Below are positions 1 through 58,435 of a DNA stretch of 64,000 bases, in pieces. The notes beneath the pieces are model-generated. The model saw only the letters and a program-made list of their open reading frames with translations, was not told the DNA's origin and did no database searches. Position numbers and translations under genes: made by a program. Within the stretch, counting starts at the first letter, position 1. Every line of letters starts with the position of its first letter. Source of the DNA: Clavelina lepadiformis (taxonomy: Eukaryota > Chordata > Ascidiacea > Aplousobranchia > Clavelinidae); NCBI RefSeq assembly GCF_947623445.1, contig NC_135240.1, positions 6,076,001 through 6,140,000 on the forward strand, written 5' to 3'.

Positions 1-385
1 AGCGCGATATTAAAATAGAAACGATGTTTTAACGACAGAAAGTTCAAGTTTATTTATTGCCAATTGTTCACTGCGAATCGCAAGGAATCGCTAGCGGCAT
101 TTCATAGCAGCCAAACCGAACCAATTATGCTGTTTGGCAAATTGGGGCTGGCTCTTACTACCCACATGTCTTTGCCGCTTATCTGCACAAACAGGAAGCA
201 ATAAAGTCTACAAACAGGCTGGTTAGACATATTTTAGGCCGTTTATGCGCAGAGTTAAAAAGCTGTCTGCGTCGCACAGCAAATGTCAGGTCCTATAAAA
301 GAAAAGTAATCTTAAGTACAAAGTAGTCATAAGTAGAAGGTTGTAAATTTTTTTCAAATCTTGCTATTCTAGGTGTAGGTTCCCA
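1..385. other. left edge, flank of the LINE
   Basis: No secure gene is visible here. On the minus strand, an acceptor-like site at 293-294 opens a 37-codon frame (described separately) that is followed by AATAAA-like sequence near position 45-55. The in-frame stop at 344-346 shows that the LINE frame does not extend further left. Confidence 0.5.
179..292 (-). CDS. candidate terminal exon of the class B GPCR (C-tail)
   Basis: Beyond the last certain GPCR exon (4266-4307, phase 0 end) and beyond the LINE, the minus strand has a TTTTATAG acceptor followed by an in-phase frame of 37 codons. It begins DLTFAVRRRQ and ends at a TAA, with AATAAA-like sequence about 130 bases downstream. A basic cytoplasmic tail after TM7 is expected in this family. 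However, the usual V-Q/R-x-E-I/L continuation after NGE is absent, so this may be a chance frame and the true tail exon may lie outside the window. Confidence 0.25.
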   Translation of the reverse strand, partial: DLTFAVRRRQLFNSAHKRPKICLTSLFVDFIASCLCR

Positions 386-3300
386 ATGTGTCTAAACGCT
401 AAAACTGTTCTACTCAAAACGAGATTACCACGAATTTACCACGAAGTAATAAAACTCATAAATGTTTACGCCCCAAATGTAAAAGGCCACTCGACAAACG
501 AAAACAACCTATTTTTTGAACGCGCCCACCAGTATTTCACAGACAACGTCCCGACAATACTCGCAGGCGATTTTAACATCGTCGACGACCCCCAACTCGA
601 TAAAGACCCCCCGAAGCGAATCAACGCAAGGAAAAGCGAACTGAAAGTCCTATGCGAAACCCATGACCTAAAAGACCACTTTCGAACTTTAAAGGGCAAC
701 GAAAAACAGTTCTCTTGGCAAGACGGCAACAGTAAATCGCGCCTAGACAGATTCTACCTGTCAAATAACATAACGGCTACGGAAATAGAATACGAGCACA
801 CGCACCTGTCAGACCATAAAATCGTAAAAATCCACATCAATGTTACAGCCCCCCCACCAAGGGGAAAACGCCGATGGATAAACAACACGCAGATATACAA
901 ATTTGAACCTTTTTTAAACGCGATAAAAGAAAAATGGCCGCTTTGGGCAACGCTCAAGCCATTGTACTTCGACAATCCAAGCGACTGGTGGACCGAAATT
1001 AAAAAAAGACTAAAAACGCTGATACGCCGATCTACCAAAGAAATGAACGCGGCAAACAACGAGAAAAGTGCAGAAACGAAAAAAGCCTACGAAGATGCAA
1101 TCGCAGCCTTAGGCAACAATGAAATAACATACAGCGAATACCTCGACGCAAAACGCAACCTACGAAACCAAAGAAAAAAAGAAACCATAGAAAAAACGGC
1201 CAAAAACAGAAAATTCGAAGGAAAACTAGGCAGCAAAGCGTTTTTTCAAAAATATAAAAACAAACAGAAACAAACGTTTATATCCGAACTCTACGATGAA
1301 AACTTCCTCCCAACTCAAAACCCAAAAGAAATGACAAAACTCGCTCAGTCATTCTACGAACAATTGTACAAAAAAACGGAAACGAACGAAAACGCGCAGT
1401 ATGCTTTCTTAAACGAAACCACCCGAAAATTAAATACGGAAGATAACAAAAATCTAGAAAAACCAATAACCATAGAAGAAATTGAAAACGCAGTAAAATC
1501 TATGAAAAACGGAAAATCACCCGGCCCTGACGGCTTATCCGCAGAACTCTATAAAGAATGTTGGCCACTAATAAGAAACGAAATACGAGAGCTCATACAA
1601 TACTGGTTTGACCAAAAAGTAATCCCCAGGGAAATAAAAAAAGGTATCATAACTCTCATCCACAAAAAAGGAGATGACGCAGACCTAAAAAATTATAGGC
1701 CCATAACGCTGCTAAACGTAGAATACAAAATATATACCAAAATATTAACAAACAGATTAAAAGAAATTATGCCAAATTTGATAGGAGACTCCCAGTTCGC
1801 AACGGTGGGAAAAACAATAAGCGAAGGCACCACCCTTCTAAGAGACCTCTTCGAACAGAGCTCAAAAAGAGGGCTCGAGGCGTTTCTCGTCTCACTAGAC
1901 TTTGAAAAAGCTTTCGATTCTATAGAAAAAGACTGGCTAAAAAAAACTCTGTGCGCGATAAATCTATCCACTAAAATACGGCACATTATCGAAAACCTAT
2001 ACGAAGACAGCACCGCCGAAATTATGATAAACGGTCACCGATCAGCGGAAATAACGCTAGACAGAGGAGTAAGACAAGGCGACCCACTAAGCTTTTTTTT
2101 ATTTCTAATCGCAACCGAACCCTTGACTGAAAAACTGAGCAAAACCCAAGACATAAAAGGAATCCAATTAAGCGGTCGAAGAGAAATTAAGAATGTCAGC
2201 TATGCAGACGATGTGACTCTAACACTGAAAAATATCGCTTCAGTTGAAAAAGCCCTAGACCTCGTCGAAAAATTTAAACCCGCCTCGGGACTTAAATTAA
2301 ACATCAAAAAAACCCAAGGCCTGATAATAAACGGCGACCCCCCAACACTCCTACTACCAGATATAAAATGGAACAAAACAACCCTAAATCTACTCGGCAC
2401 AACAATCGGAATAATAAATTTGAACCACCTCTGGCAAGAAACCCAAAAACAAGTCGAAAACAAAATAGAAGAAATTAAAAAAACGTACGCCACGCTCGAC
2501 GCTAAAGAAATTCTAATCAAATCGAAGCTTTTAGCAATCACCAACAACGCGGCGCAAACGTATCCTCCCCCAGTAAACAGAATGCGATCAATAAACGAAA
2601 AAGTAAAAAATTACGCAGTAGGAAAATTCCCCCACGTAAATATAGACACCCTTCAACTCCCGAAACTCGAGGGCGGCCTAAACCTCCCAAACTTCGAAAT
2701 ATACGCGGACTTAACGTATCTAAAATCCATCAGAAAATACTGCCTTGCCAGAGTTCTAAACGAGCCCCTTAGCGCCCACAACAGCTATATCGAATACCAG
2801 ATTGGCCACGTAATTCCCCGAACTTTAGAAGTTGTACACCTAAACAATCTCCCCCACACCGACATCCGATCCCCATATTATGAAAAAGTAATCGAAATTA
2901 TTAAAAAATACGATCTGAAAAAAATTGACCTCATCTGCGGAAGTCTAAAAAAAACGTACAACAGAATAATAAGCAAACCAAGAACACAATCCAGAAATAC
3001 CCAAACAGAACGCAAAAGATGGGAGAGAATACACTGCCCTGAACTCCCAAGCTATCTACGGACCTTTAACTTTAAACTCGAAAGCAACCTGCTACCTTTT
3101 AACACAGATATAAACCAATACGCACCAACAACAAAAAACAGCTGCCGTTTTTGTAGAATCGGACCAGATACCGCCTACCACTTATTTCACAAATGCCCCC
3201 AGACCAAGATACAATGGAAAAAAACAATAACGATCGCCGAAAAAACATTAAACCTAAAAATTAATAAAGAAAATGTCGAGAAGCTGTGCGCCCTCAGGCA

Positions 3301-3520
3301 CGACATGGGACTCGAACTAAACACCGACAAAGTTCTCACCGTACTAATTACAACGATGAACCACCAAATATGGAAAACGAGACTTAAATGCGTAATCGAG
3401 AACCAACAGTTCTCCTCAGAAAAACTGTCGAACGATATTTACAGAAGTTTTAAATACAGAATCTCCACCCTACGCAAAAATAACCCAGACATTGTAAGAA
3501 ACCTTACCACCCCCCTCTGA
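386..3520 (+). CDS. LINE ORF2 fragment: partial endonuclease plus reverse transcriptase
   Basis: An uninterrupted frame of 1044 codons. The N-terminal 150 residues carry the second half of an APE-type endonuclease, with blocks KLINVYAPN, AGDFNIVDD, SRLDRFYLS and LSDHKIV. The amino-terminal catalytic block is missing. The reverse transcriptase follows, with GKSPGPDGLSAELYKE, NYRPITLLN, SLDFEKAFDSI, GVRQGDPLS and the catalytic SYADDVTL. Near residue 920 there is a C-x2-C-x8-H-x4-C knuckle (CRFCRIGPDTAYHLFHKC), as in L1/Tx1-clade ORF2 proteins. The chosen ATG is only the first in frame after the stop at 344-346 and is probably not the native start. Without its N-terminus the copy should not be able to move by itself. 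Confidence 0.93.
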   Translation: MCLNAKTVLLKTRLPRIYHEVIKLINVYAPNVKGHSTNENNLFFERAHQYFTDNVPTILAGDFNIVDDPQLDKDPPKRINARKSELKVLCETHDLKDHFRTLKGNEKQFSWQDGNSKSRLDRFYLSNNITATEIEYEHTHLSDHKIVKIHINVTAPPPRGKRRWINNTQIYKFEPFLNAIKEKWPLWATLKPLYFDNPSDWWTEIKKRLKTLIRRSTKEMNAANNEKSAETKKAYEDAIAALGNNEITYSEYLDAKRNLRNQRKKETIEKTAKNRKFEGKLGSKAFFQKYKNKQKQTFISELYDENFLPTQNPKEMTKLAQSFYEQLYKKTETNENAQYAFLNETTRKLNTEDNKNLEKPITIEEIENAVKSMKNGKSPGPDGLSAELYKECWPLIRNEIRELIQYWFDQKVIPREIKKGIITLIHKKGDDADLKNYRPITLLNVEYKIYTKILTNRLKEIMPNLIGDSQFATVGKTISEGTTLLRDLFEQSSKRGLEAFLVSLDFEKAFDSIEKDWLKKTLCAINLSTKIRHIIENLYEDSTAEIMINGHRSAEITLDRGVRQGDPLSFFLFLIATEPLTEKLSKTQDIKGIQLSGRREIKNVSYADDVTLTLKNIASVEKALDLVEKFKPASGLKLNIKKTQGLIINGDPPTLLLPDIKWNKTTLNLLGTTIGIINLNHLWQETQKQVENKIEEIKKTYATLDAKEILIKSKLLAITNNAAQTYPPPVNRMRSINEKVKNYAVGKFPHVNIDTLQLPKLEGGLNLPNFEIYADLTYLKSIRKYCLARVLNEPLSAHNSYIEYQIGHVIPRTLEVVHLNNLPHTDIRSPYYEKVIEIIKKYDLKKIDLICGSLKKTYNRIISKPRTQSRNTQTERKRWERIHCPELPSYLRTFNFKLESNLLPFNTDINQYAPTTKNSCRFCRIGPDTAYHLFHKCPQTKIQWKKTITIAEKTLNLKINKENVEKLCALRHDMGLELNTDKVLTVLITTMNHQIWKTRLKCVIENQQFSSEKLSNDIYRSFKYRISTLRKNNPDIVRNLTTPL

Positions 3521-23100: not shown

Positions 23101-23506
23101 TGCTGATTAACGGCAAAGGTCAAAGGTTACAAAACTTAGCATCGGACGTCAGCATGAAATCATTATTCTACTTATAAATCCTAAAATACTTTAATTCTTG
23201 TGCTTCAACTCGCCGCAAAGCTGCCATCGTCTTACCACAAGCTGGCTCGTCGTTTTTATAGACCAACCACTCCCCAGCATCATTACATGTCTCGCTTTTT
23301 GGACCAATTCGTTTTTTAGACATTAACGAAATCAACGGCTTTTCGTCAGGAGCGAACACCGGATTATCTAAATTGAGCAGTTTCTTCAGAAGCTTGTCGA
23401 ATCCACCTCTTGAAGGTGACGGCGCGGCCCAAGCGAGGTTTATCATCGTCAAAAACACGAGAAAGCAAATACATCCCGAGCAAACGAACTGATTTGTCAT
23501 AATCAT
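20198..23506 (-). CDS. secreted Cys-rich protein with EGF-like modules, 4 exons
   Basis: Exons 23236-23506, 22879-23013, 22397-22521 and 20198-20236 chain in phases 1, 1 and 0 and encode about 189 residues. Exon 1 starts with a signal peptide (core CICFLVFLTMINLAWA). It continues with a basic, Leu-rich stretch (FDKLLKKLLNL) and a KKR site just before the first cysteine, which suggests propeptide processing. The Cys-rich part follows: ETCNDAGEWLVYKNDEPAC, then FCNCPESHQLGMIRGVDTC, which resembles the second half of an EGF module, then GMCSLKPCPPEYKC and GFRFDC. It ends QCDVTQCR. The last exon is followed by AATAAA near 20105. The last splice (2.2-kb intron) is less certain than the others. It is a small secreted factor of unknown role; I do not recognise a specific family. 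Confidence 0.75.
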
Positions 23507-23519
23507 GATTCGATCTCGA

Positions 23520-26500
23520 CACAGTCAGCAGCACAACAATGAAGTCGATTGAATTACAAAACTAACAACTGCAACAGTAGCAGCATATAGTAGAAACGTT
23601 TTCGGCATAAACAAAATAAAATAACACAAATTGCTGAAACCGGTCTGATATTCTGTATTCACCAGCCTTCGGCTTTGCCTTTCGGCTAATGATAATTCTT
23701 TATTATATTGCATATTACTTTTCTATCTCTATCAGCCTACAGTATATTACAAACCTTATATCTTACCGTAGTTTTATTTAATACTCAAAGTTAGTTACGT
23801 CATAGTAATGAGCAAGAACATGAGCGCTAGGGATAACACACAGGCAGAAAATTTGTGCGGTTAAATCAAAGTTTTAATCTCAATTATTTTTCTGCAAATC
23901 TGTAGCGTTATACCAGCACCGTTGTTGGTTTTAATAAAAAAAAAACTAGTTGACAGACATGTCTGATATGCTTACGTATACTCTATAGGTCTACCCTATT
24001 CGGTGGTGTAATTAGATGCGCCGATAATGACAACGCAAGACTTAAACTCTCACGCTTCTTGGTTATAGGAATGGTCCAATTGAGACAGTAGTTAACGGAA
24101 AACCCACTTAAAAAGGCGAACACTACCAGGAAAAAAGGTGGTACAATCCCCAAAAATTTCCTGTCATTATTTCAAAATCGATATCGGTCGGATTCGATCA
24201 AATAAATTTGATTCAGTTTATTTTAAACTTTTGATCCGATTAACTCCGTCGTTGTGCCAAAAGAAAGAAGTTTCTATCTCTTCTGAAAACTTATAAAAGT
24301 GAAAATAATTTGACAGAATATATCCAACGTCAGATAATTTTGACGTAAAGAAATATGACCGTTATAAAAACTGACATAATATTGAACGATGAGTCTACTC
24401 ACAAAAAGATGGAATTCGATAATAATAATTAGATTACGTTCTTGTTGGTTATACGGCTGCAAAATAAGTTTTTTTTTTCAGATACCAGGATGCGTGTGCT
24501 GGCGTTTACTAGTGATAGATACATAAATAGTAATAAAAGTTGTCAAGATGAACATGGTCAGAAGATATGGTTTTAGCAAAATCAGTTCTACTTATAACGT
24601 GACGTAATTGCATAATTATTATGATTATAACTGCATAAACATGTGTAATGCATAATTTATAAATTTAGTGACGACAAATACTCTCGGATTGATAACAGCA
24701 ATGACATTGTCTTTTAAATAAAAAAAATCTTCAGCCTTCATAGTTTATTCCGTGCGTTTTTCATGCCGGAGCGTTTGAGCCTTCTTTAATATTAACGTTA
24801 ATCTCAATCAACTGACTTTCTATTCGACAAATTATTGATTAGCAACGACGATTTTAAAAGCACCAACGATTCAAGGAAGAACTACGATCTTCAGGATAAA
24901 AATGGTTCCATTTACGGCGTAAACGTCTGTGCCTACCTTGCTGACAGCGCTAACCTGCACTATAGAGCAGCAGGAAACTGATTTCGCGATGTGCTTCCGA
25001 ACATTTATAACCGGTCTCTTGTTGACCGTTTGTTCTTTTTTCGTGCGAGCGCGGTTTGTGTTTTATGAAAAATGAATGTTTTGTCTGAATTTATAGACGT
25101 TTTGGACACGTCTATAAATACTGTATTATAATAATTGGAGCGAACTCGTTTGAACCGGTTTCATGAGTAAATTATCATCTAGAGCAGGTAACTGAGGTAT
25201 CCGCCAGGCACACACCAACTGCGCCACGTTCGTGTTCACTGCCAGGGCGAACTAAACGCTATTTATGATGCAGTAATAGATGCCCTACGTGTTGGACTCC
25301 CAGCTGACGTCATTACAGATGTTTTCACTTATGACCTGCCAAGTAAAATTTATTACTAATTTCAACCGGTTGCGCAGAGCGCTTGACCGTCGGAAATTAA
25401 CAGCCATCACAAATGAAACAACTGTCAAATATGATGTCCGTTGGGTTTTGGTTCTATTGTTTGCTCTGTGCTTCACATTTGGACTCACGTTGTAATACAC
25501 TAATTTTTATATAAAATAATTGATAAGAAACTGCAAGGGCCTCTGTTCAGAAAGTAAAAAAGTTTTGCAGTGGCCCAACAAAAAAAAATTAAGAAACATT
25601 CGTTGTTTGTTTCTTCAGTTGGCTTCAAAATGCTACATTTGTATAATTGATGAACCGTGCCCTGTATATAATCAAACAGCAGCATGTATGGTTGTACTCT
25701 TGCAGGGTTTGAAAAATATGAGTGTTTATCGGACTTGGTTAAACGTACGAGGGGCCCTTTTCACTTCCCGAGTAGGCATATGCATTTGCGCATTCATGTA
25801 AAGGCCTGAATGGGAAGAAAGTCTGACGTAATAATACTCGTAACTACTGGATTCCGGCATGCTTGTAATTTTTTGAACTTTGTCCTCCAGCGCTATCGCA
25901 AAAACCGCAATAATCCTACGACACCAGAGATCGCAGAATAAGCAAAGAAAGATTCAAGAGCTTTCGGATAATTTCCTGTGTAGCGCCTCGCTTGTTGCTG
26001 CAATACAAGTATAATTGGAAGGAGGCTGGTTTGCTCGAAAACTTTGTGCGACATCTATTGGTAATTAGCTTTAATTGTTCAAAATCTGGAGGGGACTTGT
26101 ATCCCCCTGAGACAAGGTCACTGGTATAATTGGCACGACGTTTGTTGCTAATAACTGTAACCACAAATGAGAAGTTATTTCCAAAGATTACTTGATAAAC
26201 GCACGGCTGTTCAAGGCATGAACCATGTCTGCAACAAATATTTGGGATATTGAAGGATTTACTGGCAATTTTCACCGGGTTATTCCGCGGTTAAAATGAA
26301 GGCATGGACAAGTTCGCTTAACCCAAATCGTCCCAACACGACAAAGCGAGGTGCACGAAACCTTCTAGGCCGGATAAACTTGCCGTGAGATTTATTCACT
26401 TAAACCTTGAAAGTTTCTCGTTATCTGTCACCGGTGTAGAACAAAGTCGCATAAAAAGGTGCATTTGCCGCACATCATCGCGGCATAAATTTTACGCACA

Positions 26501-43939: not shown

Positions 43940-44943
43940 CGGCTATAGGCGATACCCGTTTAGCGTTTTCCAACTCGATTCTCAGTTTGCACCTTACGCT
44001 TTCAGGAGCGTATCCAGAGGATGCCTCATAATGTTTATACCCGTCGTTCGCCATAGATTTAACGTTTTTCTCTGTTATCGTTTTATAATAATTGTATTTT
44101 GTAGTTCTTGAATCGCTATTGTTGTTGTTGCTTTATAATATGCTTTTTAGCAAAAAAACAAAAAAATCCAATCCTTCATATGCTTTGTAGCCTCCATCTT
44201 TTCTTGCATGAACTGCACAATTTGCTGTGATTTTAGAAAATCTAATTTTAGCTTAATCGTTAGCATTTTATTTTCGTTTTTTCACTTTCTTTGTCAAAAA
44301 TGAACAATGCGAAGTGTTAAAATTTACAAATAGGACGATATTAAAAAAGGAATTTTTGTAAAACTTCCGCAAGCTGGCAACAAAGCAGTTGCAGGCCTAA
44401 TGTGTTGGACTAGTGGTTTATTGCCACTATAGCTTTCATACAAAAGTAATGAAAAACCAAATGCAGAACCAATTTGCCATTTCCGTGATGTGGCTTTAAG
44501 GTTTGTTGTTAAGTCTTTGGTTAAAAAGAAAATTAATTTGAGAAGTAATTGAAATATGCAATTATAGCGAATAGCTCATTGACAATTAAGTTTTTCTTTT
44601 GAAAGTGTTGTAGGGTAGTTGCTGGTTATTATCTTCCCAACATCATCATGTAGCCATCTTGCCAAACAAGCAAATGTTTTCCTTCCAGTTGTTAAAATGG
44701 GCAATCATTACGGATAAACATAACCTACACATGGTTTAGTTAAAGTCAAAATTATGTTGTAACTTTTATCCAGAAGTTCAATGCATGATTGGTTGAACAC
44801 CAAATCAGCGTCATGCTAAATATTGCCTTGGCAAGTTCATCATATTGTTGCAAGGGTGTGGTCGTCACATACTTTTTTTGAACAGAAGTGACTATTAAAG
44901 GGTGAGTTTGTACTGTACTCCAACATTCTCTGTTTTCTTGTCC

Positions 44944-45561
44944 TTATTTTCCCAGGAAATTTGCATTTAAAATATTGTCTTCATTCACTACCTCGCTTCT
45001 GCGAGGAACTTGCAAACGCGGCCTGACAAAAGCGGACCAAAAACCTATAAATAAAACATTCAAAAGATTAAAATAGTAATAAATAAGCATTGGGGCGATT
45101 TGACGTCATCATCGTTTGACATCATCTTAAGCTAAAACTTATCTTGAAACAAGGTGCTCGTTATAGATGACATACCAGATTTTTAACTAAATGGAAAAGT
45201 AAATCTCTATTAAAACCTTGTAGTTTAAGCTCAGCTCAGCCATAATGTAAATATAGCCATAGCCTAAAGCAAGTACAGCGTCGTTAAATCATAGCAACTA
45301 CCGTAAGTATAATGCATTTCAATTTTCTATAAACAGGATTTCGACTTTCCTTAAGCAAACTGAAATAAGCTACATTGTAGTTTTACACAAGCAAAGGCAC
45401 AACTTATAAAAACCACAACTTATAACCAATATAATAGGCTGACCTTTCGCCTTTAGAAGCTTCCAGATAAATTGAGACAGAGGAGACGACCCAGCATTAG
45501 GCCTACTAGCACTTACACAGAAGATAGCAGAAAGGACGCAAAATAAAATAAACTTGTTCAT
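44944..45561 (-). CDS. secreted cationic amphipathic peptide precursor, copy 1 (predicted antimicrobial)
   Basis: Exon 1 45444-45561 and exon 2 44944-45044 join in phase 1 to give 72 residues. The donor is AAAG|GTCAGC and the acceptor TATTTATAG. The signal peptide (FILFCVLSAIFCVSAS) is followed by a short spacer and the segment SQFIWKLLKAKGFWSAFVRP, which alternates hydrophobic and basic residues as an amphipathic helix would. A basic VPRRS site follows, then an acidic tail (SEVVNEDNILNANF). Signal, cationic helix and anionic tail is the layout of ascidian clavanin/styelin-type precursors; no close sequence match is claimed. It differs from the other copies by SASRPNAGS in place of VSNAES and by a dibasic RR in place of GR. 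Confidence 0.7.
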
Positions 45562-46505
45562 TTTTTGTCGCTACTTCTTTCACAGCTTCACAACGTCTTC
45601 ACCTGAACCAGCAGAATTTAGTTTTGAGCGCTTGGGCCAGATGCAGTGATACTTTCATAAACCTGGTCAATCCCTCAGGCCATGCACAGGTCAATAGTTA
45701 TGATACCTTTCAGGCTTTAACGACTGCCCATTGTTTGTCCATATGATGGCGAAAATCTGTTTCACTTCCTGGAAACAGCACATTAGACGGTTTGGGATCT
45801 TTTGATTAAAGGTCTCATGTTATCTAGTCTGCCAGCGAGCGCGTTGCATTAATTACTTTTTGCTATAGCGTCATATATGTTCGTTCAGATAGTCAAGATT
45901 CATAGCATGTAGCGTGTTATTTTTTGATGTTTTGTTGGAAACATATAGACCTGTATGTTGTGGTATTGAATTTGACTCAATACAACGCTTTCTGCTGAAG
46001 GAAAATTTTTTATAAAAGCTAATTTTTTCAAACATTTTATTAAGCAAAAATCAATCTTGAATTTTGTCTCAAAATCCTTCTTTCTACAAAGAAAATTTAT
46101 TTGAGATTTAATTGAAATATGCAATTATAGCGAATAGCTCATTGACAATTAAGTTTTTATTTTGAAAGTGTTGTAGGGTAGTTGCTGGTTATTATCTTGC
46201 CAACATCATCATGTAGCCATCTTGCCAAACAAGCAAATGTTATCCTTCCAGTTGTTATAATGGGCAATCACTATGGCTAAAAATACCCGACACATGGTTT
46301 AGATAAACCCAAAATTACGTTGTAACTTTTACCCAGAAGTTCAATGCATAATTTGTTAAACACCAAATCAGCGTCACGCTAAATATTGCCTTGACCAGTT
46401 CATCATATTGTTGCAAGGGTGTGGTCGTCACATACTTTTTTTAAAAGCAGTTACTATTAAAGGGTGAGTTTGTACTGTACTCCAACATTCTCTGTTTTCT
46501 TGTCC

Positions 46506-47104
46506 TTATTTTCCCAGGAAATTTGCATTTAAAAGATTGTCTTCATTCACAACCTCGCTTCTGCCAGAAACCTGCAAAAGCGACCTTATAAAAGCGGACC
46601 AAAAACCTATAAATAAAACATTCAAAAGATTAAAATAGTAATAAACGAGCATTGGGGCGATTTGACGTCATCATCCTTTGACATCATTTTAAGTTAAGAC
46701 TTATCTTGAAACAAGGTGCTCGTTATAGATGACACACCAGATTTTTAACTAAATGGAAAAGTAAATCTCTATTAAAACCTTAGCTCAGCCATAATGTAAA
46801 TATAACCATAGCCTAAAGCAAGTATAGCGTCGTTAAATCATAGCAACTACCGTAAGTATAATGCATTTCAATTTTCTATAAACAGGATTTCGACTTTCCT
46901 TAAGCAAATTGAAACAAACTACAATGTAGTTTTAAACAAGCAAAAGCACAACTTATAAAAACCACAACTCATAACCAATACAATAGACCGACCTTTCGCC
47001 TTTAGAAGCTTCCAGATAAATTGAGACAGAGGGTACGACTCAGCATTACTAACCCTTACACAGAAGATAGCCGAAAGGACGCAAAATAAAATAAACTTGT
47101 TCAT
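46506..47104 (-). CDS. secreted cationic amphipathic peptide precursor, copy 2 (predicted antimicrobial)
   Basis: Exon 1 46993-47104 and exon 2 46506-46606 join in phase 1 to give 70 residues. The likely signal cleavage is after VSNA. The mature part contains PLSQFIWKLLKAKGFWSAF, then IRSLLQVSGRS and an acidic tail with VVNEDNLL. The net charge of the helix region is about +4, with two tryptophans. The Gly-Arg after QVS could serve as a monobasic cleavage and C-terminal amidation signal, as in other ascidian peptides (inference). The donor GTCGGT is non-consensus after the third base. Confidence 0.72.
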
Positions 47105-48051
47105 TTTTTGTCGCTACTTCTTTCACAGCTTCACGACGTCATCAGCACGTGAACCAGCAGATTTTAGTTTTGAGCGCTTGGGTCAGATGCAGTTAAACTT
47201 TCATAAACCTCGTCAATCTCTCAGGTCATGCACAGGTTAATAGTTATGATACATTTCAGGCTTTAACGACTGCCCAGCGTTTGTCCATATGATGGCAAAA
47301 ATCTGATTCACTTCCTGGAAACAGCACAGCAGACGGTTCGTGATCTTTTGATTGAAGGTTTCATGTTATCTAGTCTGCCAGCGAGCGCGTTGCATTAATT
47401 ACTTTTTGCTATAGCGTCATACATGTTGGTTCAGATAGTCATGATTCATAGCATGTAGCGTGTTATTTTTTGATGTTTTGTTGGAAACATATAGACCTGT
47501 ATGTTGTGGTATTGAATTTGACTCAATACAACGCTTTCTGCTGAAGGAAAATTTTTTATAAAAGCTAATTTTTTCAAACATTTTATTAAGCAAAAATCAC
47601 TCTTGAATTTTGTGTCAAAATCCTTCTTTCTACAAAGAAAATTTATTTGAGATGTAATTGAAATATGCAATTATAGCGAATAGCTCATTGACAATTAAGT
47701 TTTTCTTTTGAAAGTGTTGTAGGGTAGTTGCTGGTTATTATCTTGCCAACATCGTCATGTAGCCATCTTGCCAAACAAGCAAATGTTATGCTTCCAGTTG
47801 TTATAATGGGCAATCACTATGGCTAAAAATACCCGACACATGGTTTAGATAAACCCAAAATTATGTTGTAACTTTTACCCAGAAGTTCAATGCATAATTG
47901 GTTAAACACCAAATCAGCGTCACGCTAAATATTGCCTTGACCAGTTCATCATATTGTTGCAAGGGTGTGGTCGTCACATACTTTTTTAAAAAGCAGTTAC
48001 TATTAAAGGGTTAGTTTGTACTGTACTTCAACAAGTTTTGTTTTCTTGTTC

Positions 48052-48662
48052 CTATTTTCCCAGGAAATTTGCATTTAAAAGATTGTCTTTTTTCACTACC
48101 TCGCTTCTGCCAGGAACCTGCAAACGCGACCTGATGAAAGCGGACCAAAAACCTATAAATAAAACATTCAAAAGATTAAAATAGTAATAAATAAGCATTG
48201 GGGCGATTTGATGTCATCATCGTTTGACATCATCTTAAGCTAAAACCTATCTTGAAACAAGGTGCTCGTTATAGATGACACACCAGATTTTTAACTAAAT
48301 GGAAAATTAAATCTCTATTAAAATCTTGTAGTTTAAGCTTAGCTCAGCCATAATGTAAATATAACCATAGCCTAAAGCAAGTACAGCGTCGTTAAATCAT
48401 AGCAACTACCGTAAGTATAATGCATTTCAATTTTCTATAAACAGGATTTCGACTTTCCTTAAGCAAATTGAAACAAGCTGCAATGTAGTTTTATACAAGC
48501 AAAAGCACAACTTATAAAACCACAACTCATAACCAATATAATAGACCGACCTTTCGCCTTTAGAAGCTTCCAGATAAATTGAGACAGAGGGGACGACTCA
48601 GCATTACTAACCCTTACACAGAAGATAGTTGAAAGGACGCAAAATAAAATAAACTTGTTCAT
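48052..48662 (-). CDS. secreted cationic amphipathic peptide precursor, copy 3 (predicted antimicrobial)
   Basis: Exon 1 48551-48662 and exon 2 48052-48152 join in phase 1 to give 70 residues. The layout is the same as copy 2, with a TIFCV signal core, FIWKLLKAKGFWSAFIRS and VPGRS. The tail reads EVVKKDNLL where copies 1 and 2 have EVVNEDN, so the acidic character is reduced. The stop is TAG where the other copies have TAA. The intact frames of all three copies argue that they are functional genes. Confidence 0.7.
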
Positions 48663-49175
48663 TTTTTGTCGCTACTTCTTTCACAACTTCACGACGTCTT
48701 CACCTGAACCAGCAGAATTTAGTTTTGAGTGCTTGGGCCAGATGCAGTTAAACTTTCATAAACCTGGTCAATCCCTCAGGCCATGCACAGGTTAATAGTT
48801 ATGATACCTTTCAGGCTTTAACGACTGCCCAGCGTTTGTCCATATGATGGCGAAAATCTGATTCACTTCCTGGAAACAGCACAGCAGACGGTTCGTGATC
48901 TTTTGACTAAAGGTTTCGTGTTATCTAGGCTGCCAGCGAGCGCGTTGCATTAATTACTTTCTGCTATAGCGTCATATATGTTCGATCAGGTAGTCATGAT
49001 TCGTAGTAGGCTATGTAGCGTGTTATTTTTTGATATTTTGTTGCAAACATGTAGACCTGCATGTTGTGGTATTGAATTTTACGCAATACAGCGCTTTCTG
49101 CTGAAGGAAATATTTTTGCAAAAGACAATTTTTTCAAACGTTTTATTAAGCAAAAATCCCCCATGATATTTGTGT

Positions 49176-50393
49176 AAAAATCCTTCTTTCTTCTCATTTA
49201 GAAAATTTTCTTTTATTCTCTTTGTGAAAAAGCAAGAAGCAGTTCCGCTGTGCTAATTGTCTCCTGCAAACAACCAGTAATGCAATAGTAGAATAGTTGA
49301 TAAACGACTCAAATAGCAAATAAAGTCTTTGCCCTATGGAAACCAATACGAGCAACATTAAAACCAGTATGGACCAGTATAAAAAAAACGGCATTTGGAC
49401 AAACGCCACTGGTTATTATTGAAATAATTAGGGAATTAGGTTCAATAGTTAGTTAGTTCAAAATATTTTCCAGCTAAACATGCGTCATTGTTGGACAAAA
49501 AAGTCAACAACGACCAGTTTATCGAGGTTATCCGTAACTATCTAATTTCTTCAGATTACTGTCGTCTCGATGACCATATTCTTCATCTAAAATTGGTATG
49601 AAGAGTCAGACTCGTTCCGTTTCAAATAACAACATGATGATAAAATGTACGCAGCAACAAATAACTATACGTATAATGTATACAATGACTTCCTACTTAT
49701 AATATAACTAGCAACGGTTATCAAGTTGCAGAAGCTACTTTTTGATTATACTGACTCTTGTTGATTTGACTTGAGACACCGGATGCGTCACTCTCCATCG
49801 CACCAGGTACTAGCGGGGTCATCAATTTCCGTCCAATCAAGTGCAGAATCTAAATTGAAATAAATGTGAACCTTTGCGTCAAACTCGGTTAACATTTAAC
49901 CTTGAGTTTTGTGTTAAAATCCTTCTTTTCTTTTCATTTAGAAAATTTTCTTTTATCTCTTTTTGAAAAACCAAGAAGCATTTCCGCTGTGCTTTGTCTC
50001 CTGCAAACAACCATTAATGCAATAATTGATAAACGACTCAAATAACAAATGAAGTCCTTGCTCTATCAAAACCAATACGAGCAACATTAAAACCAGTATG
50101 GACAGTATATGGACCAGTATAAAAAAACGGCATTTGGACAAACGCCACTGGTTATTATTGAAATGATTAGGGAATCAAGTTCAATAGTTAGTTAGTTCAA
50201 AATATTTTCCAACTAAACATGCGTCATTGTTGGACAAAAAAGTCAACAACGACCAAGTTATCCGCGTTTTCCGTAAATATCTATCTTCTGATTACTCTGG
50301 TCTCGGTGACCGTATTCTTCGATCGATCAAGTGCAGAATCTAAATTGAAATAAATGTGAACCTTTGCGTCAAACTCAGTTGAAATTAACCTGG
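49176..50393. repeat. two direct copies of a 0.4-kb block right of the peptide array
   Basis: 49176-49582 plus 49832-49890 recurs as 49916-50320 plus 50324-50380, so the second copy lacks about 250 internal bases. Shared stretches include CCTGCAAACAACCA, AACGGCATTTGGACAAACGC and AAATAAATGTGAACCTTTGC. On the minus strand the left copy has a short hydrophobic frame (FFLYWSILVLMLLVLVSIG) that is frameshifted in the right copy. I do not call it a gene. Confidence 0.8.
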
Positions 50394-51149
50394 GCGTGTT
50401 TGTGTGGATGAAGCTTCTGGACAAGTTGTATCCACAACAGAAAACAGGCAATCATATCCATGCACTAAGGGTCATACAGGCTACAACTGGGGCAATACTA
50501 TGGGCTTATGAAGCTCATGAATTTATAAGTGGGCCTAAAAGTCATACAGACCAGAAGAATATTTTTTTTTCTAAATCACAATTTATCAATTGATATTCCA
50601 GATATTTATTGTTTATACTTAACTTATACGGTACAACGCGGCGATTTTAGGGTTAGAATCATCATTTAGATTAGAACAACGAACGAAAGAGAAAGCCTAT
50701 TTTTTTATTGCTGTGTGCGGCCAATAATATTTTATGATCCTTCTGCTGATATTCTGCATATCTGGTAATAACTTGCTAATGTCACCAACCATTTGAGACT
50801 CCTCTTGGTTCCCATTTTGTCGCTTGGTGTGGCTGCGTATATGTAAGAAGAAATAACATTAAAGTGTCTAGAATATACAAAAATTAAATAGACTATAAAC
50901 TGAAAGAAAATCTCCTTGTGTTAGATCTTGTCTATGCGTGTAGAGAAAATCTTTGATTGATAAAAGAACACACAAAACACTTTAAAATATGACCTATACA
51001 TGGGTGAAGACTTATGAAAAAGATTACACATTGAAACCAAAGCAACAATGTATTGTAATCAACCTATATTGTAAATGCATAAAATACAGCAAATCGGCTG
51101 TTAATGTTGCCCCAATAAACAAGATATCTTATTATGACGTGCCAATTAC

Positions 51150-51284
51150 CTGACTTTAGCAACCATCTCCAGATATCCTGGCTCGCATAGTGGCTTGGAT
51201 GGCCCGAAGTGTTGTTGGGATCACTGTTGCTTGCACCTGCCCTAAAAAGTCCACAGACGACGCAAAATAGAAGCAACTTGTCAT
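51150..51284 (-). pseudogene. diverged fourth peptide-family member, exon 1, start frame broken
   Basis: The minus frame reads DKLLLFCVVCGLFRAGAS and later SQDIWRWLLKS, ending at a phase 1 donor (G|GTAATT). It matches exon 1 of the array genes in signal core, SQxIW-LLK motif and phase. The ATG aligned to the paralogues' start (51282-51284) is followed by a one-base deletion (ATGACAAG against ATGAACAAG), which puts it out of frame with the signal peptide. The upstream in-frame codons hit a stop with no ATG. A frame at 50697-50832 (ESQMVGDISKLLPDM) may be a remnant of exon 2, but its phase does not fit. It is either a pseudogene or uses another first exon. Confidence 0.55.
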
Positions 51285-52643: not shown

Positions 52644-54437
52644 ATGAGGTCTTTAATAGCGCCCATCCTAGTATTGGTGTTAGCTATAAGTTTAGCAACC
52701 GTTGTTTTGAGTCAAAATGAACGCATATGCTTAGCTCTTGAACGTGAATCTTCAGCTTCCCCGCAAGTGGGCGCTCAAGGGACACCTGGCAAAAGGGGTG
52801 TCGCAGGACCCACTGGACCGCAAGGAATAAAAGGGGATCCAGGTCCACCTGGCCAGTGTCGGTGCGATTTAAGTGAAGTTGTTGAACTCAGGGAACGTCT
52901 GGACCAGCTTGCGAGTGAGCATATGCGTGTAAAACCATGGTAAAACTTTACCCCATGTATAGCCGATGTTTATAGCATAAACGTAGCAGGGAAGAAGACC
53001 GCTTTAGCCAAAGGCTTAATTATTGTTAATGACATTTTATGCTAATGAATATTTTTTCTTCTTTAGATAAAGCAGCGAGAAGCGCGCAAAAGCTTGACAG
53101 AGTGTTCAACCATTTCAAAGGTAAGATCGTTAAAAACGCAAGTGGCGTCTGCGGCGCCGCCCTGATGCGTACAGCGTCTTCATTGGCATCGCAACGGCTC
53201 CTTGTCCGCAAAAAATGAGACATGTGAGACAAAACTTAAGTAATATTGCTCTAAAAATAATTTATTAAAAGTTTGCTTATAATTATGCTAAGCTTAGTGC
53301 TGCAAAGCATTCAATATTTTTTCTGCCTTAATTTGCAGAGAAATTATGCTTGGTTGGTGTAAAGAGTGGTAAAGTACAGGATGAAGACATGACCGCGTCA
53401 TCAATTTTCTCCTCCAGTTACGCCGCTCATCAAGGAAGATTGGATAACACTGGAACGAGCTGCTGGTTCCCATTGCATTCTAAAAGCCGTGAGGTTTTGA
53501 ACATATTTACCAAACAATAGACCAGAGATCGGGAACCTATGGCTCGTGCGCAAGATGTGGTTCTTATGATGACGGCATCTGGCTCGCAGATAAATCTAAG
53601 CTAGCTGGCATTTCTTTGCACGATTGTGACGAATAAAACATTTTCTGTAATTTTTCGTAACGCCTTAACAGTAAGAAGCATGTTATTAAAGAGAAAATTC
53701 AGACATTTACTGTTGTCTGAAATTGTTTGTTTTGCTTAAAAATGCACACGTTAGTTAGATTTAGTGTTGAAAAATATAATCGGCTCTCGCGGAAATATGA
53801 TTAAAAATATGTAGCTTTCATTGCTCCCTTAGCCAAAAAGGTTCCCGACCCCTGCAATAGGCTTTCAGAGTCAACAACGACTTTGAATTCATTTAGAAAC
53901 ACCCGGTGAATGGATTCAAGTTGACCTAAAAAAGCCAACCGTAGTAACTGGAGTAGTGACGCAGGGACGAAATGAAAGACCACACCGAGTCACAAGCTTC
54001 AAGATATCCTACGGGAACTCAACTGACCAGTTGCAAGTGATACAAAATGACGAAGGAAGTGATCATGTGAGTCTATGTGTTCTTATGAGTTTGTTTAAAT
54101 GAAGGCCATACAGGGTGTGGCGTATAGTCTAATCATTAGACTATAAATACATAACAAAAGTTATCAACCCAATATACATTAGACTCTAATGTAGATTGGT
54201 TTCATAACTTTTGTTTAAAAGGCAAAGTACAGTTTCATACGTTTCGAAATACAATAAAAAAAACGATTTTTACGCCATTAAAATTGTACACATTTGCAGA
54301 TATTTACAGGCAACACTGACAGCAACACACACTTGCAGAACATGTTCCCGAACCCAATTAAGGCCAGATACTTCAGACTTATCGTCGTAACCTTTCAAGA
54401 CTACATCGCTTTACGCTTGGATTATCTGACTTGCTAA
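52644..54437 (+). CDS. secreted collagen-stalk, discoidin (F5/8 type C) domain protein, 5 exons
   Basis: Exons 52644-52926, 53067-53120, 53339-53488, 53897-54066 and 54300-54437 chain in phases 1, 1, 1 and 0 and give about 264 residues. A signal peptide (LIAPILVLVLAISLATVVLS) is followed by an N-terminal Cys, nine uninterrupted Gly-X-Y triplets (GKRGVAGPTGPQGIKGDPG), a CRC motif and a heptad-like neck (VVELRERLDQLASEHM). The C-terminal discoidin domain has CLVGVKSGKVQDEDMTASS, GEWIQVDLKKPTVVTGVVTQ, VTSFKISYGN and ARYFRLIV, and ends LDYLTC, so the domain-closing cysteine pair is present. The product should trimerise through the stalk and bind glycans or membranes, in the manner of collectins and ficolins (inference). 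The intron between exons 3 and 4 holds a MITE. Confidence 0.9.
53523..53854. mobile_element. hAT-type MITE in a discoidin-gene intron
   Basis: The 332-bp element starts CAGAGATCGGGAACCT and ends with the near-inverse AGGTTCCCGACCCCTG. The flanks CAATAGAC and CAATAGGC match at seven of eight bases, fitting an aged hAT target duplication. It has no coding capacity. It ends 42 bases before exon 4, so it supplies sequence close to that exon's branch and acceptor region. Confidence 0.88.
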
Positions 54438-54481: not shown

Positions 54482-54544
54482 ATGGACCGTCAATCTTATT
54501 TCGTAATTGTTCTGTTATTTTTGCTTATAACACAAACGTGTATT
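54482..54544 (+). CDS. signal-peptide exon of a small secreted gene, copy A
   Basis: The ATG is followed by DRQSYFVIVLLFLLITQTCI and a perfect GTGAGT donor. It starts only 45 bases after the stop of the collagen-discoidin gene. The same exon with its 5' flank is duplicated at 57368-57433. The downstream exon is not securely found; 56432-56643 is a candidate but needs a different phase. Without splicing the frame ends after 42 residues. Confidence 0.45.
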
Positions 54545-57817: not shown

Positions 57818-58435
57818 TCAATTACAGTCAATTTCGCCGTTCTCGTACGTATGAGCCTCCGTCACGGTATTACCAAGTGAGTCGACGCACCAGCAATCCC
57901 CGCTCCGATCGTCACATTGCTTTGGGAACCAACTTCCGTCCTCGGTACAGTTAGGGAACCAAGGCTTGGGTTTGATGAAGGGGTTTTGCTCGAGAACTTC
58001 CGCCGCCTTGCGATGGCGGTCCAGGCAGCAGTCGAGGTCAATCGCGTCTTCAGTTCTCGTCAAAGTGCCCGGAACTGCTGTTCCATCCCTTTTACTGCAC
58101 CAACAGGCACCAGTAACGCTGCGGCGCTGTATGGGGAGAAAATAACCATCTTCGTCACACTGCGGTGGTTCTGGACCATCCATGATACCTGGATGGTTCT
58201 TCATGAATTCGTCGATGTCACGCGATCGCTTTTCACAGGGTTTCAAATCATCTATACGAATCAAGTTCGGTTAATTTGGTTTAACTCGCTTCGGCAACCT
58301 GTATGATATGGTGAGAATTATAAAATTACAAGAATTGCCATTTACTGGGAAGCGCTAAGTTTACGTTCACTTACCGCCGTTTGCGTTGTACCATAGCACT
58401 GACCATACAAGTAACATGATGTGTATTGAACTCAT
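57818..58435 (-). CDS. secreted protein with two thyroglobulin type-1 domains, 2 exons
   Basis: Exon 1 58375-58435 (signal peptide, IHIMLLVWSVLW) joins exon 2 57818-58251 in phase 1 to give 164 residues. Domain 1 has PPQCDEDGYFLPIQRR and GACWCSKRDGTAVPG. Domain 2 has FPNCTEDGSWFPKQCDD and GDCWCVDSLGNTV. Each ends with the closing cysteine (DLDC, EIDC). The QC/CWCV signatures define the Tg type-1 fold, which in many secreted proteins inhibits cysteine proteases or binds growth factors. With nothing but two Tg1 modules, this could be a free-standing protease inhibitor (inference). Confidence 0.93.

Follow-up and report, generated by a model that had tools for sequence, protein, structure and literature searches.

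Among the antimicrobial peptides of ascidians, the clavanins of Styela clava are histidine-rich, amidated 23-mers and the styelins are Phe-rich 32-mers, as described in the passages of PMC7460354 and PMC4904370 that concern them, and PMC9966394 gives KHK as a motif common to the styelins and botryllin. Precursors in Ciona usually, though not obligatorily, carry an anionic helical C-terminal region with a charge of −3 to −10, which was present in 17 of 22 candidates in the relevant part of PMC7387483. The window considered here is the whole 64,000-nucleotide (nt) stretch of Clavelina lepadiformis DNA from positions 6,076,001 to 6,140,000 of contig NC_135240.1 (assembly GCF_947623445.1, forward strand), and all coordinates below are those of the window. 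It contains three tandem copies of a predicted short gene (c1, c2, and c3) and, beside them, a diverged relative (g4), all on the minus strand. We consider it slightly more likely than not that these form a lineage-restricted C. lepadiformis gene family whose products are short secreted peptides of the linear cationic helical antimicrobial type.

The array consists of three head-to-tail units at 44538–46100 (1,563 nt), 46101–47646 (1,546 nt), and 47647–49190 (1,544 nt), all with minus-strand genes, which bears out the three tandem repeats of about 1.55 kb reported in a preliminary description of this DNA. Unit 1 shares 93% identity with unit 2 and 92% with unit 3. Each unit is predicted to hold, on the minus strand, an exon with an ATG, a GT-AG phase-1 intron, and a 101-base exon with a stop codon; with these elements present in all three, the precursors of 70–72 residues previously proposed to span one phase-1 intron were confirmed as models, at 72 amino acids for c1 and 70 each for c2 and c3. 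In c1, exon 1 (45444–45561, 118 bases) encodes the predicted signal peptide and the first half of the cationic segment and ends at the donor AAG/GTCAGC, and after an intron of 399 nt exon 2 (44944–45044) continues with GFWSAF, an RR site, a tail of net charge −2, and the stop. The corresponding exons of c2 lie at 46993–47104 (112 bases, donor AAG/GTCGGT) and 46506–46606 (GR site, tail of net charge −2, stop), separated by 386 nt, and those of c3 at 48551–48662 (112 bases, donor AAG/GTCGGT) and 48052–48152 (GR site, tail of net charge +1, stop), separated by 398 nt. The predicted donors carry an unusual C at +3, yet they rank in the top 2.0–3.4% of 4,027 GT sites when scored with a generic weight table. 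When the C. lepadiformis genome (209.06 Mb in 95 contigs) was searched at the DNA level with the unit, matches were found only at these three places, the counts from such searches being lower bounds, and a transposon origin was rejected on this result.

Public databases hold two further sequences of this kind. A protein search with c3 retrieved P0001 (“Secreted protein”), and a profile search with c1–c3 and P0001 retrieved P0001 and P0002 (“Uncharacterized protein”); these two, both from C. lepadiformis, were the only relatives among ∼5.8 billion proteins, and none was found there outside the species. Both are encoded on a 14,208,942-base contig of another assembly and have no functional annotation. 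P0001 consists of a g4-type first exon joined to one unit and P0002 of two units joined, and both have the exon junction K-G/FWSAF of c1–c3. Together they hold three further unit variants in addition to g4, which implies that the other assembly has at least three units, whose order would fit g4-c3-c2-c1. The two entries are apparently automatic models in which neighboring genes were fused, which makes it probable that public databases mis-annotate the family.

The first exon of P0001 located g4 in the window, just upstream of the array, where the preliminary description had missed it. Exon 1 of g4 (51150–51284, minus strand) aligned with c1 and c3 with scores of 56 and 54, which were reached by 0 of 5,000 shuffles in each of two schemes, and its last bases adjoin a strong donor in phase 1, CAG/GTAATT. 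In this assembly the ATG at position 51284 does not share the conserved frame, whereas the P0001 counterpart starts in frame. A second exon resembling that of the units was sought among 53 phase-compatible candidates, none of which was convincing (top score, 24). A candidate but unproven exon 2 at 50732–50832 (minus strand), unlike exon 2 of the units, is in phase and is followed by AATAAA ∼22 bases past its stop; it is skipped by the public model P0001. With c1, the g4 first exon, and the first part of P0002 as protein queries, the same genome yielded nothing beyond the array, g4, and a single match with an expectation (E) value of 0.58 and an internal stop, and nothing convincing was found in the 10 kb on either side of the window (top E value of 0.065, over 16 residues).

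The DNA around g4 has features of its own. Between c3 and g4 lies a second local duplication (49161–50386) that starts at the edge of unit 3, its segments at 49161–49550 and 49900–50289 being 78–92% alike and ∼739 bases apart, and in the DNA search of the genome the stretch at 49161–51149 matched only itself. Head to head with g4 stands a gene for a secreted protein (52644–54437, plus strand). Its product starts like a signal peptide, includes a short collagen stretch that does not reach the Pfam cut-off, and has an F5/8 type C domain across three later exons (E value of 1.9e-24); it is possibly a collagen-lectin or defence lectin, and the proximity of the gene was not used as evidence. Two simple NF-kB patterns gave two matches upstream of g4 and no match within the 500 bases that precede c1–c3, and TATAAA occurs at −453 in c1 and −456 in c2 but not in c3; neither observation is informative.

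For the predicted peptides we compared six sequences, namely c1, c2, c3, P0001, and the two units of P0002 (P0002N and P0002C); the tail of P0002N was lost in the fusion, leaving five complete tails. All begin with a signal-peptide-like stretch, called by a crude rule and by eye, have no Cys beyond the predicted cleavage site, and carry a net charge of +2 to +7. With 70–72 residues, the precursors of c1–c3 fall within the class of Cys-free secreted sequences of 50–100 residues delimited in PMC7387483. The core FIWKLLK-x-KGFWSAF does not vary among the six copies. We re-implemented the HeliQuest quantities, reproducing four rows of Table 3 of PMC7387483, and all six copies contain a cationic helix window as that table's study defines it (18 residues, hydrophobicity 0–0.6, moment 0.1–1.0, charge +3 to +10), although the test is an unspecific one. 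The core is followed by an RR site in c1, GR in c2, c3, and P0002N, and AR in P0001 and P0002C, so that the basic processing site previously proposed is dibasic in c1 only and is a single R in c2 and c3. The acidic tail likewise stands for c1 and c2 (net charge −2 in each) but not for c3, which shares a net charge of +1 with P0001 and P0002C. All five complete tails end in GK, and a terminal GK or a GR is a possible amidation signal.

If these genes are expressed, three seemingly recent tandem copies and an older, diverged relative would yield precursors that lose their signal peptide to release a cationic, Trp- and Phe-containing peptide of ∼32 residues, if cut at the RR, GR, or AR site, or of ∼47–49 residues as the whole chain. 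The core would fold as a helix-hinge-helix on bacterial membranes, and by analogy with other linear cationic helical antimicrobial peptides of ascidians the peptide would permeabilize them. A single-sequence AlphaFold model of P0001, of low confidence (mean predicted local distance difference test [pLDDT] of 54, predicted template modeling score [pTM] of 0.27), places helices at residues 59–69, 73–82, and 89–102, corresponding to PLSQFIWKLLK, FWSAFIRSRL, and EVVKKDNLLNANFL, and breaks the helix at each hinge. A more specific form of this proposal, which we regard as speculative and rather unlikely, is a Clavelina-specific antimicrobial family lacking the acidic pro-piece that most ascidian precursors have. 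In it the ∼47-residue whole chain would be amidated at the conserved terminal GK and act as a cecropin-like helix-hinge-helix-hinge-helix, and the family would turn over fast between individuals through tandem duplication, exchange among units, and losses such as that of the g4 start.

The relation of this family to the described ascidian peptides is loose. Pfam yielded no family above its cut-off for c1–c3, the single listed match being PycTM in the signal region of c1 (E value of 0.089; 13.6 bits versus a cut-off of 27.2), and no match for the g4 model, P0001, or P0002; PDB held no sequence match for c3, and a literature search that included three core strings found no earlier report. With relatives only in C. 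lepadiformis, these results fit the suggestion, made in the preliminary description, of a possibly undescribed family. Comparison with clavanin A and eight Ciona peptides gave no significant alignment, the lowest shuffle fractions in the nine tests being 0.027 (KH.C4.429) and 0.042 (clavanin A, score 21). Ciona KH.C4.429 shares IWKL with the Clavelina family, and with its fraction being one of nine it is a lead only. Like the Ciona peptides covered in the corresponding part of PMC7387483, the Clavelina precursors are short and have a signal peptide and a Cys-free cationic helical segment; unlike most of those, none of the five complete tails contains an anionic region.

The description of the genes as clavanin/styelin-like holds only loosely. 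With the clavanins the family has in common an ascidian origin, Phe-containing predicted helical peptides, and a Gly within the chain, but there is no His after the signal peptide in five copies and only one in P0002N. The styelins of Styela clava and botryllin of Botryllus schlosseri are likewise cationic and helical, and one of the forms possible for the Clavelina peptide would have 32 residues; KHK, on which our comparison with the styelins exclusively depends, is absent from c1–c3, P0001, and P0002, and the botryllin precursor has 158 amino acids as compared with 70–72. A very diverged true member of the clavanin or styelin families, from the same phylum and with a similar kind of precursor, could account for clavanin A lying slightly above its shuffles; however, this similarity is not significant over nine comparisons, and the scarcity of His relative to a histidine-rich 23-mer, the lack of KHK, and the lack of an anionic pro-region make such membership highly improbable. 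To judge from its sequence, the family is not a clavanin.

A number of observations weigh against a functional peptide family, and many of them would be expected if the loci were not functional as proteins, that is, if a chance or decayed frame, perhaps within a non-coding RNA, had been carried along by recent tandem duplication and the public models were ab initio predictions. The exons are not better conserved than the intron and flanks: divergence between copies is 7.9–8.9% in exon 2, 2.7–5.4% in exon 1, 3.9–4.9% in the intron, and 2.1–12.1% in the flanks. The ratio of nonsynonymous to synonymous substitution rates between copies (0.40–0.69) is based on three to four synonymous codons per pair and is indistinguishable from 1, and the differences between c1 and g4 at the three codon positions (17, 12, and 17 in 37 codons) show no third-position excess. 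The frames and splice sites are indeed intact in all three copies, as had been noted, but because the exons have diverged no less than the introns and flanks this proves little; in a simulation in which splice sites were not counted, 5–15 random substitutions left 69–35% of such coding frames intact. A crude gene model combining a signal peptide and a cationic window, devised after the genes had been seen and giving rates that serve as a guide, turned up at a rate of 0.225 per 64 kb across 40 simulated sequences and a single time in 22 loci of the real genome (220 kb); within the window it passes at c1, c2, and c3 only, three copies that are not independent. Because of these chance rates, the layout alone is only suggestive. 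In c2 and c3 a rival donor within the signal peptide outscores the predicted one (6.1 versus 5.8), the pyrimidine tract of the shared acceptor is ordinary (within the window, 32% of YAG sites have one as good), and the AATAAA closest to the stops of c1–c3 is 344–521 bases downstream. Both public models are fusion-like, the g4 ATG is out of frame, and no c1–c3 protein of the window's own assembly was among the database matches even though the database includes NCBI-named proteins of that assembly (P0004), which is mildly unfavorable. Nevertheless, the g4 exon retains the frame, the phase-1 end, and residues such as LFCV, SQ-IW, and LL at a much greater DNA divergence, and the frame and junction are retained in three unit variants of the other assembly. 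A non-coding origin is improbable in our estimate; g4 and the public gene models raise our confidence, and we consider it likely that this is a real family of secreted-peptide genes.

Given such a family, its role would probably be in defence, though here too some features are unfavorable. According to PMC7387483, 80 of the 165 secreted sequences without Cys in Ciona also pass the cationic window, which is hence unspecific; the anionic region is absent from the tails; and the core does not exceed shuffled sequences in hydrophobic moment (fractions of 0.15, 0.36, and 0.39), which leaves the cationic amphipathic segment proposed earlier supported in its charge and weakened in its amphipathicity. 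The same unremarkable amphipathicity is compatible with a signaling or other non-defence product, in which the precursor would be cut at the basic site and amidated at GR (in c2, c3, and P0002N) or at the GK that ends every complete tail, giving hormone-like peptides. The tail, however, is neither repeated nor a sharply conserved short peptide, the residue before R varies (R, G, or A), so that amidation there is not conserved, and strong conservation falls instead in the hydrophobic-cationic core; this alternative seems to us to have a limited, but not negligible, chance of being correct. Because a high likelihood of a real family is combined with a probable role in defence, the antimicrobial reading as a whole is only slightly favored. 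If the peptides are expressed and active, they would constitute a linear helical antimicrobial family from an aplousobranch ascidian, for which our searches gave no relative in other species. They would also be an example of how rapidly tunicate defence peptides turn over, and the array lets the recent gain of copies (c1–c3) and the lost start of g4 be compared among individuals.

Elsewhere in the window, a 118-residue open frame at 23171–23524 (minus strand) resembles a signal peptide at its N-terminus, contains a KLLKKLL stretch, and has no Pfam match, and two similar stretches at 54482 and 57368 (plus strand), ∼2.9 kb apart, each have a hydrophobic, signal-peptide-like open frame. An open frame of 1,057 residues at 347–3517 (plus strand) belongs to a non-long terminal repeat (non-LTR) retrotransposon and encodes both an endonuclease domain and a reverse transcriptase domain (RVT_1, E value of 4.9e-33), and two thyroglobulin type-1 repeats (E value of 9.1e-26) are encoded at 57821–58270 on the minus strand.

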